Shown here piece by piece: positions 55,450-61,081 of a DNA stretch of 64,000 nucleotides. Below the pieces are notes generated by a model. It did not search any database, had not been told where the DNA came from, and was given only the letters and a program-made list of their open reading frames with translations. Each line of letters begins with the position of its first letter. Positions within the stretch are counted from its first letter, which is position 1. Where the stretch lies: positions 2,790,001 through 2,854,000 of the forward strand of contig NC_020891.1 of assembly GCF_000355695.1 (NCBI RefSeq). The letters are read 5' to 3'. The DNA comes from Clavibacter nebraskensis NCPPB 2581 (GTDB taxonomy: Bacteria; Actinomycetota; Actinomycetes; Actinomycetales; Microbacteriaceae). The position numbers and the translations under genes were made by a program.

Positions 55450-56250
55450 ATGGACATCGGCGGCTCCCTCGGCGAGATCACCGTCACGGTCGCGCTGCTC
55501 ATGATCCTGGCGGCGCTCGCGGCCGGCTGGATCGACGCGGTCGTGGGCGGCGGAGGCCTCCTGCAGCTGCCGGCGCTGCTGCTCGTGCCGGGGATCACGC
55601 CGGTGGAGGCGCTCGCGACCAACAAGCTCGCGTCGCTGTTCGGCACGTCGACGAGCGCGGTCACCTGGTACCGGCGCACGCACCCGGACCTCCGCACAGC
55701 GCTGCCCATGGCCGCCGTCGCGCTCGCCGGGAGCTACGGCGGGGCGAGCCTCGCGGCGCTGCTGCCGGCGGCGGTGTTCAAGCCGCTCGTGGTGGTCGCG
55801 CTGATCATCGTGGCCGTCGTCACGATCGCCCGGCCGCAGCTCGGCGACGTCGCCGCCCTCCGCCACACCGGCCGGAAGCACCACGGGATCGCGGCGCTGC
55901 TCGGCGTGGTGATCGGCTTCTACGACGGGCTCATCGGGCCCGGCACGGGCACGTTCCTGATCATCGCGCTCATCACCGCCCTCGGCTACGACTTCGTGCT
56001 CGCGAGCGCCAAGGCGAAGATCGTCAACGTCGCGACGAACCTCGGCGCGCTCGCCTTCTTCATCCCGCAGGGCCACGTGCTCTGGGCGCTCGCGCTCGGC
56101 ATGGGCGTCGCGAACATGGTCGGCGGCTACGCGGGATCCCGCATGGCCGTCGCCCGCGGCAGCCGCTTCATCCGCGTCGCGTTCATCGTGGTGGTCGCGG
56201 TGCTCATCGTGAAGGTGGGGTCGGACGTGGTGACGGAGTGGGGCGCGTGA
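55450..56250 (+). CDS. TSUP-family (TauE/SafE) membrane transporter
   Basis: 266 residues with about eight TM helices. Signature motifs are GWIDAVVGGGGLLQLPALLL in the first repeat and GFYDGLIGPGTGTFLIIALI in the second, which mark the two-repeat TSUP fold. Members export or import sulfite, taurine-derived sulfonates or other organic anions; the substrate is unknown. The stop codon lies inside the first hip operator. Confidence 0.9.
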   Translation: MDIGGSLGEITVTVALLMILAALAAGWIDAVVGGGGLLQLPALLLVPGITPVEALATNKLASLFGTSTSAVTWYRRTHPDLRTALPMAAVALAGSYGGASLAALLPAAVFKPLVVVALIIVAVVTIARPQLGDVAALRHTGRKHHGIAALLGVVIGFYDGLIGPGTGTFLIIALITALGYDFVLASAKAKIVNVATNLGALAFFIPQGHVLWALALGMGVANMVGGYAGSRMAVARGSRFIRVAFIVVVAVLIVKVGSDVVTEWGA

Positions 56251-56313
56251 TCGATCGATCACCCTTGACTCGGTGATCGATCGATCACATACTCGAAGGT
56301 GATCGATCGATCA
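56248..56313. promoter_or_regulatory. Three perfect 14-bp hip operators
   Basis: TGATCGATCGATCA occurs at 56248-56261, 56274-56287 and 56300-56313, each fully palindromic and exactly 26 bp apart. This equals about 2.5 helical turns, so alternate sites face opposite sides. They flank and overlap the hipB promoter, and are the obvious binding sites for HipB. Confidence 0.9.
56265..56293 (+). promoter_or_regulatory. hipBA sigma-A-type promoter
   Basis: A -35 box TTGACT (56265-56270) and a -10 box CATACT (56288-56293) are separated by exactly 17 bases. The second operator fills the spacer, and the first and third flank it, so occupancy by HipB would block RNA polymerase. The ribosome site GAGGAGG is at 56317-56323. 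Confidence 0.7.
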
Positions 56314-56327
56314 CCCGAGGAGGCGGC

Positions 56328-56597
56328 ATGGCCAGGACCACGCGGACGCTCGCCGCGGAGCTGCGCCATCGGCGTGAGGAGCTGGGCCTCACCCAGGCGG
56401 GCGTCGCGGAGCTGGCTGGGGTCTCGCGGGAGTACATCGTGCGACTCGAGAGCGGGAAGCCCGGGTCGGAGATCGGATCGATGATGCGCGTCGTCCGCGC
56501 GCTGAGCTGCGAGCTGAGCCTCACGATCGACCCGCGAGCCGCGGATCCCGACATGCCCTCGCCGTTCGACCAGCCATGGGAGGACGACGATGAGTGA
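56328..56597 (+). CDS. hipB: HipB-like antitoxin, Xre-type DNA-binding protein
   Basis: 89 residues. A Cro/C1-type helix-turn-helix: LRHRREELGLTQAGVAELAG, then VSREYIVRLESGKPGSE. An acidic tail (FDQPWEDDDE) probably contacts HipA. It binds the three operators upstream to repress its own promoter. The last 8 bases overlap the hipA start. Confidence 0.92.
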   Translation: MARTTRTLAAELRHRREELGLTQAGVAELAGVSREYIVRLESGKPGSEIGSMMRVVRALSCELSLTIDPRAADPDMPSPFDQPWEDDDE

Positions 56598-57912
56598 GGC
56601 CCTGAGCGTCTACCTCGACGGCCGGTTCGCCGGACGATACGAACGGACGACCTCCGGTCGCGTCGGCTTCACCTACGACGCCGCCTACGCCGAGAGGCAC
56701 GGAGCGACGCCGCTGTCCATGTCCCTCCCCTTCGGCGCGCGCCTGCCGGCGCGGGCGGTGGATGCCTACTTCTCGGGGCTCATCCCCGAGGGCGCCGATG
56801 CGCTGGAGCAGATCCGACGGACGCACGGGCTGCGGACGACCGCCGACGCGTTCTCCGTCCTCCGCCACATCGGGCGCGACGCCCCGGGGGCCGTGCAGAT
56901 CCTGCCCGAGTCGGAGGAGGCCGACGACGATGCCCGCGCGCAGGGCGACGTGACGGAGCTCTCGCCCGATGAGCTCCGCGGCCTCATGTCCGATCTCGCA
57001 TCCGGCACCGGCACCACGCCCGCGACCCTGCAGGGGAGGTGGTCGCTGCCGGGCGCGCAGCGGAAGGTGGCGCTGCACCGGCTCGCCTCCGGCGCCTGGG
57101 GGATCCCGCGCGACTCCACGCCCACGACGCACATCCTGAAGCCGGCCATCCCCGGCTTCGCGCACCACGACGTGAACGAGTTCCTGACGATGCGGGCGGC
57201 CGCAGGGCTGGGGCTCGACACGGCGCGGACCGACGTGCTCGATCTGGGCGACGGGCTCTCCGTGCTCGTGTCGCACCGCTACGACCGGATCGAGGTCGAC
57301 GGCCGATGGCGCCGGCTCCACCAGGAGGACCTCTGCCAGGCGCTCTCCGTGATGCCCGGTCGCAAGTACCAGGACCAGGGCGGTCCGGGGATCGCGCAGG
57401 CCGCCGACCTCTTCAGCGAGTTCGAGTACCCGGCCGAGGCCGCATCCGCTCGAGCGCGCTTCTTCGACGCCGTCGTCTTCAACGTGGCGGCATGGGCGAC
57501 GGACGCGCACGCCAAGAACTTCTCCGTCATGCTGCGCGGGAACGGCCAGCAGCTCGCGCCGCTCTACGACCTCGCCTCCTACGCGCCCTACGACGGAGGG
57601 CCCCAGGCGGAGCGCTCCGCGATGAAGGTCGGGGACGAGTACCGGCTGGCGGCCATCGGGCGGCATCATCTGCAGAAGGCGGCGCGGCGGCTGCAGGTCG
57701 ACGCGGATCTCGCGGATGCCCGGATCGACGCCATCCGCGACGGCATCACGGACGCGTACGCGGAGGCGGTCTCCGCGCTCGCGGACCACCCGACGCTCCT
57801 CGCACCGGCGCGCGCGATCGTGGACGCGGTGCACACCAAGGCGGTCGAGCGGGGGTGGGCGTCCGCGAGGACGTCGATCGACCTCGGCGAGGCGGGCGAC
57901 GGGCCGACCTGA
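56590..57912 (+). CDS. hipA: HipA-like serine/threonine kinase toxin
   Basis: 440 residues, the E. coli HipA length. The N-terminal subdomain has SMSLPFGARLPARAVDAYFSGLIPEG. The kinase part has the autophosphorylation-loop region WSLPGAQRKVALH, the catalytic Asp in TDAHAKNFSVML and the metal-binding Asp in LYDLASYAPYD. In E. coli HipA phosphorylates glutamyl-tRNA synthetase and causes dormancy. It is translated with hipB through an 8-base overlap. All key residues seem intact, so the toxin is probably active. Confidence 0.92.
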   Translation: MSEALSVYLDGRFAGRYERTTSGRVGFTYDAAYAERHGATPLSMSLPFGARLPARAVDAYFSGLIPEGADALEQIRRTHGLRTTADAFSVLRHIGRDAPGAVQILPESEEADDDARAQGDVTELSPDELRGLMSDLASGTGTTPATLQGRWSLPGAQRKVALHRLASGAWGIPRDSTPTTHILKPAIPGFAHHDVNEFLTMRAAAGLGLDTARTDVLDLGDGLSVLVSHRYDRIEVDGRWRRLHQEDLCQALSVMPGRKYQDQGGPGIAQAADLFSEFEYPAEAASARARFFDAVVFNVAAWATDAHAKNFSVMLRGNGQQLAPLYDLASYAPYDGGPQAERSAMKVGDEYRLAAIGRHHLQKAARRLQVDADLADARIDAIRDGITDAYAEAVSALADHPTLLAPARAIVDAVHTKAVERGWASARTSIDLGEAGDGPT

Positions 57913-57939: not shown

Positions 57940-58160
57940 ATGCCCTCGCGGGCGTGCACCCGGTAGCTGGCGTAGTGGGCGACGGCGAGCACCGCGAAGG
58001 CGACCGCGGCGAGCGCCTCGCAGATGCGGCCGATGACCGGGATGTCGACGAGCACGACCGCGATCACGGCGGCGAGCAGGGCGAGCACGCCCCACACCGC
58101 GGCCAGCCGCGCGCAGCGCTTCGCGGGGCCGGGTTGGAGCCAGGGGGATCGGTTTGTCAT
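57936..58160 (-). CDS. Small membrane protein
   Basis: 74 residues, two TM helices (LAAVWGVLALLAAVIAVVLV and ICEALAAVAFAVLAVAHYAS) with a short loop. ATG 58160 chosen for the hydrophilic start MTNRSPWLQPGPAKR. No family recognised. It marks the edge of normal-GC sequence before the AT-richer island. Confidence 0.55.
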   Translation of the reverse strand: MTNRSPWLQPGPAKRCARLAAVWGVLALLAAVIAVVLVDIPVIGRICEALAAVAFAVLAVAHYASYRVHAREGI

Positions 58161-58295
58161 TTCTCGAACCCAGGGGCGACCGGCGGCAAGGTGGATTTCG
58201 GATGCAGCGCCGCGTAGAGCACGACCCAAACGCGCCTCAGTCGCAGCGCTGAATCCACAGACGGCAATCTTATGTCACCTCTCGTAACGAGCCGG

Positions 58296-59510
58296 CTACG
58301 GCATCTCATCGAGGATGCGTGCCCACATTGCCAGATGGTGATAAATGTCTTCTGCGCGCTTGCGAATCTTTGTTGGTGCGGATAAACGCTCGACACCCTC
58401 ACGAAATGCAATAAAGTCCTCGCGCAGACGCGCTACCGCCGAAGAGGTCGGCATCGTAGACCACTCACCAATTTCCACACCACGCACGCGCACCGAATGA
58501 CGCATTAGCGAGTGGTAGTCGAGAGTCAGCGGCGACGCACCATCGCATTCCTCACATTCGCAGGCCACGAGGGGCCTATTTTGGGTCCATAGCACGTTTG
58601 CGAGTTCTACCGATATATACTTATGCAAGCGCGGCACATAATATCGCGCCTGCGGCGCGCCCGAAGAAGGCAACTCTATGTAGTCACGATGCTCCCCAAA
58701 GCCAATTCCATGCGAGGAACCCACGAGTCCATATCGAGCAAGTAAGACGGAGAAGAATCCACCATATAGCGCGAATACACGTTGCCCGCGCTCCCTTGCG
58801 CTTTTAATAGCTCGCGCATACGCCGCGAGCTCGGATACCGACTCCGGCCGAAACTCCTCCAAATCATTAACCCACGCAACGATGTCAATAGTGTTTACGC
58901 TATTCGCTAACGCACCCCACTTGTCCGCTGTAGTCGCAGCAAGGACCCGACGCAAAGGAATGCCCACCCGGCGCGACGTCGCATATTGCACGGAAGCCTC
59001 CCACAGTCGGTTCGATACCTCGAACCAACCGTCGTCGGCACTCTCCACCATCATATATGGGGGCAGAATAGCATTTGGGCCTTGGCGATTTTCGGGGAAG
59101 ACTGCCTCTTGAAGTCTTGAGGCATACTTGTCGAAGGTCTTCGTGGTTACATTGTCGAAACCAACATTAAAGTCAATCCAGCGCGCTGCAACCTCGTTGA
59201 CCACTTCGTCCGTAAAGTCTTCTGGCGTCGGCTGCCGATCCGTTTGAATTAGACCAGGTTGCCCCAAAACCTCAGCAAGCATCGCGTGAGACTTCTTGGC
59301 GCTCGTAAGACGATTCTGAAACAATGGAAATCGGGAGTCAATGATGTACGGTTTTGCTGATCGCGCCGAGAGACTTAGTACAAAGCCCTTGGTGCCCTCA
59401 GCCTGGAAGGCAGCAATCGTTCCTGGCACAAGGAGACCGTCAAACACTCCTGAGAGATCGCGAACCGTTTGCTGATCGGTAGATCCGTAGCTTAAGTAAT
59501 GCTCAAACAT
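58296..59510 (-). CDS. TGT-fold-like protein with CxCxxC zinc motif
   Basis: 404 residues, soluble. The strand/helix rhythm fits a TIM barrel (FVLSLSARSAKPYIIDSRF, NAILPPYMMVES, VFALYGGFFSVLLARYGL). The C-terminal part has Cys317, Cys319 and Cys322 in ACECEECDG with His333 and His338 after it. TRNA-guanine transglycosylases place a CxCxxC...H zinc site at nearly the same residue numbers (318/320/323) in a protein of similar length. The TGT catalytic Asp/TRSG motif is not evident, so activity is doubtful. DpdA enzymes that insert 7-deazaguanine into DNA are TGT relatives, making nucleic-acid modification or recognition one idea. Its start overlaps the nuclease-like gene by 8 bases. Identity is inference. 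Confidence 0.5.
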   Translation of the reverse strand: MFEHYLSYGSTDQQTVRDLSGVFDGLLVPGTIAAFQAEGTKGFVLSLSARSAKPYIIDSRFPLFQNRLTSAKKSHAMLAEVLGQPGLIQTDRQPTPEDFTDEVVNEVAARWIDFNVGFDNVTTKTFDKYASRLQEAVFPENRQGPNAILPPYMMVESADDGWFEVSNRLWEASVQYATSRRVGIPLRRVLAATTADKWGALANSVNTIDIVAWVNDLEEFRPESVSELAAYARAIKSARERGQRVFALYGGFFSVLLARYGLVGSSHGIGFGEHRDYIELPSSGAPQARYYVPRLHKYISVELANVLWTQNRPLVACECEECDGASPLTLDYHSLMRHSVRVRGVEIGEWSTMPTSSAVARLREDFIAFREGVERLSAPTKIRKRAEDIYHHLAMWARILDEMP

Positions 59511-59955
59511 ACCAAGCCTCGCATTTCTTTAGGTTCGTAACGATACGAAGTCGAGCGGATTTATTTGCGACCGAAGCTTGGGGTCGGCGTACGACTTCGC
59601 CCCCCTGAGGGCCTATAACAATTATGCCGACTCCAAAAGATTCAGCTTCTTCTATATTCCGCTGACGCGGCGTGGCAGGTAAAACCATCCATGACCTGTC
59701 AAATCCCGTACGGTTGTAGGTAGCCTGCTCAAGTGCACGTCCGAATCCGTTGAGTTTCAGTTCAAAGGCCGAGAGGACGCCACTTCGAGTGTGGGTAACT
59801 AGGTCGACACGCCTGCCGTGCACGGGAAGCTCTCGGACTATCGTTGTGTCTGTACGAATCCAGTTAAGGCGTCGGAGGTACTCCACGAGAGGCGGCATCA
59901 TTCTCGCCTCTCCGGTCGTATTGAAAGCGTCGTCCATTTCCGCGTAAGCAATCAT
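59503..59955 (-). CDS. PD-(D/E)xK nuclease-like protein
   Basis: 150 residues from ATG 59955, with AAGGAG eight bases upstream. A small alpha/beta domain contains the candidate catalytic set Asp51 (RVDLVTH) and Glu65-x-Lys67 (SAFELKLNG), with Glu42 before it, the layout of PD-(D/E)xK nucleases and restriction endonuclease-like proteins. Later strand SWMVLPATPRQRN and VGIIVIGPQGG fit the fold. Third gene of the island operon, overlapping both neighbours, so likely made in fixed ratio with them. Substrate is unknown. Confidence 0.65.
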   Translation of the reverse strand: MIAYAEMDDAFNTTGEARMMPPLVEYLRRLNWIRTDTTIVRELPVHGRRVDLVTHTRSGVLSAFELKLNGFGRALEQATYNRTGFDRSWMVLPATPRQRNIEEAESFGVGIIVIGPQGGEVVRRPQASVANKSARLRIVTNLKKCEAWYV

Positions 59956-60539
59956 GAGCTGACTCCTTGCGATGTTGAGCCGGAGTGTTCGTACGACTGC
60001 TGTAAGCGTGATTGGAAAAAGATGTATATAGCAAACACTACGACACCGAAAGCAAGCAGGACTGCCACACAATAAAGCGCCCCGTGCCACAAAGTTGTCA
60101 TGCTAAAGGTAAAAGTGTAGAGCAATATTGCTACGAGCACCCCTACGGCAAATGCAACGGATGCCCACTTTGCGACAGAACACGTTATCAAGAACGCTTG
60201 GAATTGACGCCGAATGCGCATACGCTCGCGCAATACCCGGACAGCGCGCTTGGCGATGCGTCCTACTGGAGCGGGATCCTCGACTACCGACCCAGGGTCA
60301 AATGGCGCTCCGGGTGGAGGTATGACCGCGTCAATGGCTGCACGCAATTCTTGGAACAAGTCCGTGGCCTTGCCATGCAGGCCCGCGTATGCAAAATTGA
60401 CTTTCAATACCCAATCATCGTGCGCTTTTTGCCGTAAGTGCACAGTTTGCCACACCATGCCTATTGCGGCGATGAGCACCACCACGCCCACGCCAGTGAT
60501 CCAGTCAATATTTGGGGCACTGGCCGGGACCGCCGACAT
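59952..60539 (-). CDS. Hypothetical membrane protein of the island operon
   Basis: 195 residues from ATG 60539 (GTG 60542 alternative). One N-terminal TM (WITGVGVVVLIAAIGMVW), a ~75-residue charged cytoplasmic or outer region, and two C-terminal TMs (WASVAFAVGVLVAILLYTFT, ALYCVAVLLAFGVVVFAIYI). The middle has an Arg-rich stretch (RAVRVLRERMRIRRQ) that could touch nucleic acid or lipid. The stop overlaps the nuclease gene start (ATGA). It could be a membrane effector or anchor. Confidence 0.65.
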   Translation of the reverse strand: MSAVPASAPNIDWITGVGVVVLIAAIGMVWQTVHLRQKAHDDWVLKVNFAYAGLHGKATDLFQELRAAIDAVIPPPGAPFDPGSVVEDPAPVGRIAKRAVRVLRERMRIRRQFQAFLITCSVAKWASVAFAVGVLVAILLYTFTFSMTTLWHGALYCVAVLLAFGVVVFAIYIFFQSRLQQSYEHSGSTSQGVSS

Positions 60540-61081
60540 CACGCGTCGGGCCCGAGTATGTCCTCACGAATTACAGACTTCGTCGTAAAGGAGTCGTACC
60601 TCTGATATACGTATCGAACGAGTTGCCTAAGCGGAATCGAGGCGAATCTCGACTTAAATTCTTCAAGCTCTCGGATGGCGTTCTGAGGCAACTCTTTTGA
60701 CAGAGCATCGAAGTACTTCCATCCGCGCTCTGTTAATTTAAAGTCACGTGAGACGTAGGAATTGGTGGCAACGTCGTCAATGCCGTGTCGCTTTTCCCAT
60801 GAATCGGATTCGTCTTGAGACAGAAGCGCCGAATCTGTCACCAAGCCCGCGGCGCTCAGCGTGTCAACTGCTTGGTAAACTCTTTGTGAGAACGGCCCGA
60901 AGTTATAGGGTTCAAATTTGGCATCCTCGTCGAGCCAGTCTTTGCTATTTGTCTCTCGCTCTATCAAAAAAATCAACTTCTCGAGGCGAGTCACCCCTTG
61001 AATTTCTCCAGGTTGACTGTTTGCCGCTTTGACGCCTAGCAGCAGCACCACTAGGTCGTCAATCTCAACCGGGTTGCTCAT
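60539..61081 (-). CDS. YwgA/Panacea-like protein of the island operon
   Basis: 180 residues, first gene of the operon. The pattern RLEKLIFLIERETN ... FEPYNFGPFSQRVYQAVDTL ... FKLTERGWKYFDAL resembles the Bacillus YwgA family and the Panacea/DUF4065 antitoxin-like domain, which share a helical core followed by a winged-helix-like region. Panacea proteins act as universal antitoxins in TA pairs. GAGGA lies before the ATG. It may sense, inhibit or scaffold the other three products. Family link is by pattern only. Confidence 0.55.
   Translation of the reverse strand: MSNPVEIDDLVVLLLGVKAANSQPGEIQGVTRLEKLIFLIERETNSKDWLDEDAKFEPYNFGPFSQRVYQAVDTLSAAGLVTDSALLSQDESDSWEKRHGIDDVATNSYVSRDFKLTERGWKYFDALSKELPQNAIRELEEFKSRFASIPLRQLVRYVYQRYDSFTTKSVIREDILGPDA

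Follow-up and report, generated by a model that had tools for sequence, protein, structure and literature searches.

HipA is a classic persistence toxin. In Escherichia coli, two HipA molecules reportedly flank the antitoxin HipB on each operator of the hipBA promoter, and HipA molecules on adjacent operators are said to pair via their N-terminal subdomain, blocking the active sites; the high-persister mutations of E. coli have been proposed to make this promoter-bound pairing of HipA weaker. Here, we analyze a hipBA promoter of Clavibacter nebraskensis NCPPB 2581, contained in a stretch of 64,000 nucleotides (contig NC_020891.1, positions 2,790,001 to 2,854,000; this whole stretch is called the window, and its own numbering is used below), in which one palindrome occurs three times at a pitch of exactly 26 bp. 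The three copies are very probably HipB operators, and we predict that HipB binds them because their sequence covaries with the DNA-reading helix of HipB, because the sites are conserved beside variable gaps, and because the genome holds no copies elsewhere. Evenly pitched arrays recur among relatives of this HipA.

The E. coli hipBA operon consists of divergent relatives of both Clavibacter genes, and several 18-bp palindromes of one consensus (O1–O4) lie across its promoter. All four match TATCCN8GGATA, at spacings of 28, 39, and 28 bp, and the statement of an earlier sequence-only reading of the window that E. coli has four operators of different sequence is therefore inaccurate. Clavibacter differs in having three sites at 26/26 bp, a pitch in keeping with the ~28-bp spacing of neighboring E. 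coli operators of the O1–O2 type; its site, GTGATCGATCGATCAC, does not fit TATCCN8GGATA, a consensus that is lineage specific rather than family defining. The difference between the half-sites, TATCC in E. coli and GTGATC in Clavibacter, is as expected from Gln versus Arg at HipB position 34. In the hipBA1 and hipBA2 promoters of Caulobacter crescentus, inverted repeats of identical sequence recur at intervals like those of E. coli (PMC7029023); this remark covers one species, and we found neither a family-wide pitch nor a recognition code nor a spacing test there (PMC7029023). HipB of the Legionella HipBST system likewise binds three evenly spaced operators, O1–O3, with the differences that the inter-operator gaps measure 53 bp and that two split parts, HipS and HipT, make up its HipA (PMC10653801). 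Shewanella oneidensis HipBA with operator DNA (4pu3, 4pu4, and 4pu7), a HipA–HipB–operator complex, contains the solved HipB fold closest to that of Clavibacter, whose fold matches also include E. coli 5k98 (HipA–HipB–O2–O3) and 4yg1 (HipB–O1–O2). With its even triple at 26 bp, the Clavibacter array is a variant of these known multi-operator hip promoters; in the open-access literature searched, we found no description of a family-wide pitch rule or a HipB recognition code and no report of operator spacing tied to HipA dimers.

Three Palindromes at Even Pitch in the hipBA Promoter

The 14-bp palindrome TGATCGATCGATCA lies at 56248–56261, 56274–56287, and 56300–56313, exactly where the sequence-only reading had placed three identical copies at 26-bp spacing. 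Since G and C flank every copy, the repeated unit is in fact a perfect 16-bp palindrome, GTGATCGATCGATCAC, and the predicted operators, which are strandless, extend over 56247–56262 (site 1), 56273–56288 (site 2), and 56299–56314 (site 3). A promoter scan identified TTGACT (−35, 56265–56270) and CATACT (−10, 56288–56293), both on the forward strand and 17 bp apart, as the sole sigma70-like pair at the array (0.0 ± 0.2 in shuffles). The −35 element begins 2 bp past the end of site 1, the 14-bp core of site 2 spans the spacer from base 4 through its last base, and site 3 covers the predicted transcription start (~56300); the TGA stop (56248–56250) of the upstream transporter gene falls within site 1. 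The promoter layout and the overlap with the transporter gene thus agree with what that reading had described.

Such an arrangement is not readily produced by chance, as 150 simulated windows of matching dinucleotide content yielded not one palindromic 14-mer in an evenly spaced triple. A genome search for further copies, which had been proposed along with the palindromes, returned no exact TGATCGATCGATCA beyond the hip array in the 3.06-Mb genome, and the three extra matches obtained when up to three mismatches were allowed (all at three) are at the level of a reversed-pattern control, which gave two.

The Array Belongs with hipBA within Clavibacter

The transporter gene is present in all 18 Clavibacter genomes searched, this hipBA in only five. 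All three sites are kept at 26 bp in these five genomes, with site 2 invariant and site 1 altered by a single base (CGGTCAC/GACCGAT) in two of them (G008 and G016). The gap bases differ, and the only constant parts of the gaps are the promoter hexamers (TTGAC of the −35 element is invariant, and the −10 element is kept). Clavibacter genomes without hipBA have other DNA after the transporter stop; in two of them (G006 and G013), the downstream neighbor of hipA in the window follows the stop directly, leaving an empty site. Because genomes without hipBA have the transporter gene and no array, apart from one remnant site in two of them, the array belongs with hipBA rather than with the transporter gene.

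These remnants are lone operator-like sites at the transporter stop of G002 (L123, G002:C213:397-412) and G007 (L128, G007:C1:2169466-2169481), and they are probably scars of hipBA loss; alternatively, they could represent a pre-insertion site.

Operator Pitch across HipA Relatives

A search seeded with Clavibacter HipA, in which remote HipA families (HipBST, for instance) are scarcely represented, yielded relatives of this protein in Actinomycetota, Pseudomonadota, and several further phyla. An upstream hipB was located in 227 loci, of which 214 remained after dereplication at 90% HipA identity and 213 were fitted with three 18-bp symmetric sites whose two spacings were each free between 19 and 45 bp; arrays were called above the 99% null threshold. 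Triple arrays were found at 152 of the 213 dereplicated loci, and both pitches were equal in 114 of these, where chance would give 1/27. The most frequent spacing pairs were 27+27 (60 arrays) and 26+26 (30), followed by 39+39 (nine), 37+37 (six), and 28+28 (five); E. coli hip fits spacings of 28 and 39 bp. When the spacings are pooled, 76% fall at 26–28 bp, 17% at 36–40 bp, and 4% in between, such that the short and long classes lie ~11 bp, or one DNA turn, apart. Neighboring E. coli operators, at 28 bp, resemble the 26–27 bp pitch found here and fall in the family range of 26–28 bp, beside which a second class stands at 37–39 bp. Most arrays consist of three sites, and about a quarter (36 of 131) extend to four at the same pitch.

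Arrays were called in 4 of 214 hipA coding sequences and 9 of 205 regions farther upstream, with neither 26+26 nor 27+27 among the pairs listed for these controls, and in none of 60 flanks of HigB toxin loci. Adjacent sites are 75% identical and the gaps between them just 35%, which argues that the arrays are not simple tandem duplications. On a HipA tree (a quick FastTree inference with several long branches), the pitch labels require 24 changes, compared with 56 when shuffled; six changes separate pitches of 26 and 27 bp, and four separate short from long pitch. As far as such a tree can be read, pitch is inherited along with HipA.

Two variants stand out among the arrays. In a group of Actinomycetota hipBA loci (L167, L171, L174, L251, L261, and others), the pitch is 39 bp, a helical turn beyond that of the common class; TTTATGCGAACGCATAAA is one example of their operators. 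Upstream of hipB in Acidithrix (L026) are four perfect 27-bp tandem repeats, gaps included, which represent a recent array expansion.

A Recognition Code between HipB and Its Operators

We compared the consensus half-site with the columns of the HipB alignment at 120 loci with clear arrays, numbering bases by the 18-bp site and residues by the HipB of the window. The strongest covarying pair is HipB residue 34 and operator base 2 (z = 32): Arg is paired with G at 68 of 70 loci, Gln with A at 32 of 32, and Val, Ile, Leu, or Thr with T at 10 of 11. The association persists when a single locus is retained per 50%-identity cluster (Arg–G 41/41, Fisher p = 4e-22; Gln–A 19/19, p = 3e-14). Additionally, Glu35 occurs with G at operator base 4 (15/16), and residue 36 covaries with bases 7–8. 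Residue 34 opens the recognition helix in the AlphaFold model of HipB, and these residue–base pairings are the classical side-chain preferences for bases; the pairs therefore indicate that each operon's own HipB reads its array. Indeed, the Clavibacter helix SREY agrees with GTGATC (Arg34–G2 and Glu35–G4), and the Gln at position 34 of E. coli HipB agrees with TATCC.

The C. nebraskensis genome contains two more hipA loci (L263, G000:C1:410500-412763, and L264, G000:C1:605597-607900). Each has its own operator array of other sequence at 27-bp pitch, that of L263 lying slightly under the 99% threshold; one of the two loci combines Gln34 with GATCC, and the other combines Arg34 with the weaker, TGTAAC-like array just under threshold. 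Since the operator sequences of all three hipA loci are distinct, the cell is likely to contain three hipBA copies that are insulated from one another, judging from these sequences.

Interpretation of the Array

We hypothesize that a HipB dimer flanked by HipA on both sides would occupy each 16–18 bp site, and that full occupancy (upstream of the −35 element, in the spacer, and at the transcription start) would exclude RNA polymerase and thereby autorepress hipBA. The 26-bp pitch (~2.5 turns) would fix the distance and rotation at which adjacent HipB2A2 complexes meet, most likely through HipA–HipA contacts as in E. coli, and cooperative binding would keep the toxin inactive on DNA. Under this proposal, the pitch is retained because adjacent complexes must meet at a set distance and rotation. 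The sequence-only reading had suggested cooperative HipB–HipA bridging or looping. Bridging of adjacent sites by HipA is plausible, and we regard it as somewhat more likely than not: a model of HipA pairing predicts a pitch fixed within 1–2 bp across the family, a one-turn step between classes, and inheritance of the pitch along with HipA, and the pitch also agrees with the class of E. coli structures that span adjacent operators (5k98 and 4yg1). Looping, the other half of the suggestion, is unsupported and would be unneeded, since direct contact is enough between sites 26 bp apart.

The pitch could instead be set by HipB alone and without a HipA bridge, whether through HipB–HipB cooperativity, through DNA bending, or through three dimers being fitted around the promoter hexamers. 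HipB bends its operator by ~70 degrees and is cooperative on the E. coli sites (PMC3920265), and promoter geometry would also restrict where sites can lie. However, promoter geometry alone leaves the equal pitch on both sides, the four-site arrays, and the class longer by one turn unexplained; furthermore, HigB loci, which also have helix-turn-helix (HTH) antitoxins, are without such arrays, and the E. coli two-operator structures include HipA (5k98). We consider a pitch set by HipB alone rather unlikely. It is very improbable that the repeats work as RNA, as hairpins in the leader or at the transporter mRNA's 3′ end: site 3 could form a 5-bp leader hairpin, and read-through RNA could fold sites 1 and 2 into a long one (z = −5.6), but any palindromic operator yields such folds, Clavibacter genomes that lack hipBA do not have the hairpin past the transporter gene, and the covariation involves the DNA-reading helix of HipB. 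We rejected a role as leader RNA or terminator, since the predicted hipBA leader has no better fold than its shuffles (z = 0.27) and no terminator-like U run was found at the array.

The site includes three overlapping GATC tetranucleotides, as might be expected if the motif served a methylase-type GATC signal or a different regulator acting throughout the genome, with hipBA as one target. A genome-wide regulator was rejected for want of other motif copies in the genome; given also that the motif tracks the presence of hipBA across the genus and that same-pitch relatives such as TGTCGCCGTACGGCGACA lack GATC, we regard this explanation as extremely improbable. Recent tandem duplication or an assembly artefact would account for three identical copies, but not for the unlike gaps between them (CCTTGACTCG versus ATACTCGAAG), for the same array in five Clavibacter genomes, or for sequence-unrelated arrays of equal pitch elsewhere, and its probability is negligible. 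The contrast between gap and site identity, the control regions, and the simulated windows led us to reject tandem duplication and chance alike.

The hipBA promoter DNA may serve across bacteria as a phase-locked ruler, on which operator sequence drifts with the HipB helix and pitch (26–28 bp, or a turn longer) stays fixed for HipA pairing and mutual inactivation; the array would then be an ancestral and conserved component of toxin neutralization and no peculiarity of E. coli. We put this generalization forward tentatively, as somewhat short of an even chance. Several observations weigh against our main proposal, that of an array of HipB operators bound cooperatively: 61 of the 213 loci have no significant triple array; the 37–39 bp class would require a longer bridge than the 26–28 bp class; the residues taken as the HipA interface, reportedly those changed in E. 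coli hipA7-type mutants, are moderately conserved and do not separate array from nonarray loci; and the HipB of the window scores under the curated cut-off of NCBIfam TIGR03070 (59.1 versus 71.65 bits). A Trp among the last 12 residues of HipB, considered as a mark of the family, is found at just 57 of 214 loci.

The near-constant spacing despite changing site sequence suggests that pitch itself matters for toxin control, and the conserved pitch makes the generality of HipA assembly testable, by varying the spacing and following how cooperativity and the release of toxin respond. The code at residue 34 (Arg–G, Gln–A, and aliphatic–T at base 2) allows operators to be matched to antitoxins by sequence, predicts insulation among several hipBA copies per genome, and offers a route to finding and annotating hipBA promoters. 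If the promoter does act as a ruler, each hipBA copy in a genome would have its own operator address.

Genes Flanking the Array

Upstream of the array, the forward-strand gene at 55450–56250 encodes a transporter of the TauE/SafE (TSUP) family (Pfam PF01925, E = 1e-47). Downstream, a Shine-Dalgarno-like GAGGAGG (56317–56323, forward strand) precedes hipB (56328–56597, forward strand), which encodes an Xre/Cro-type HTH antitoxin of 89 amino acids (aa) with matches to Pfam HTH_31/HTH_3. Its AlphaFold model (pLDDT 89) has helices at residues 23–30 and 34–41, the latter being the recognition helix, and every one of its top six PDB matches is a HipB or HipBA structure (Shewanella, Legionella, or E. 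coli). The hipA gene (56590–57912, forward strand), which overlaps hipB by 8 bp, encodes a HipA-family Ser/Thr kinase toxin of 440 aa with Pfam HipA_C (PF07804, E = 6.7e-47) and Couple_hipA (PF13657, E = 2e-18) domains, both above cut-off, and it also scores above the cut-off of TIGR03071. An alignment of the protein to E. coli HipA (E = 7e-37) shows that its kinase motifs are retained: SLPGAQRK, ATDAHAKNFSV, and PLYDLASY pair with E. coli SVAGAQEK, ATDGHAKNFSV, and PFYDIISA, and the ejectable-loop Ser, the catalytic Asp-His-Ala-Lys-Asn, and the Mg-binding Asp are intact. The gene pair is a hipBA operon, with the marks of a HipBA type II toxin–antitoxin system (HipA domains, kinase motifs, an upstream Xre/Cro HTH HipB, and a promoter with several palindromic operators that covary with HipB). 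The closest relatives include Clavibacter sp. VKM Ac-2872 (95% HipA identity).

Three open reading frames (ORFs) on the reverse strand (58296–59510, 59503–60090, and 59952–60542) match nothing in NCBIfam, nor does the first of them match anything in Pfam or PADLOC. The region that contains them (58150–61000), in which the GC content drops from ~0.73 to 0.51–0.56 directly 3′ of hipBA, is likely an acquired island of unassigned function.
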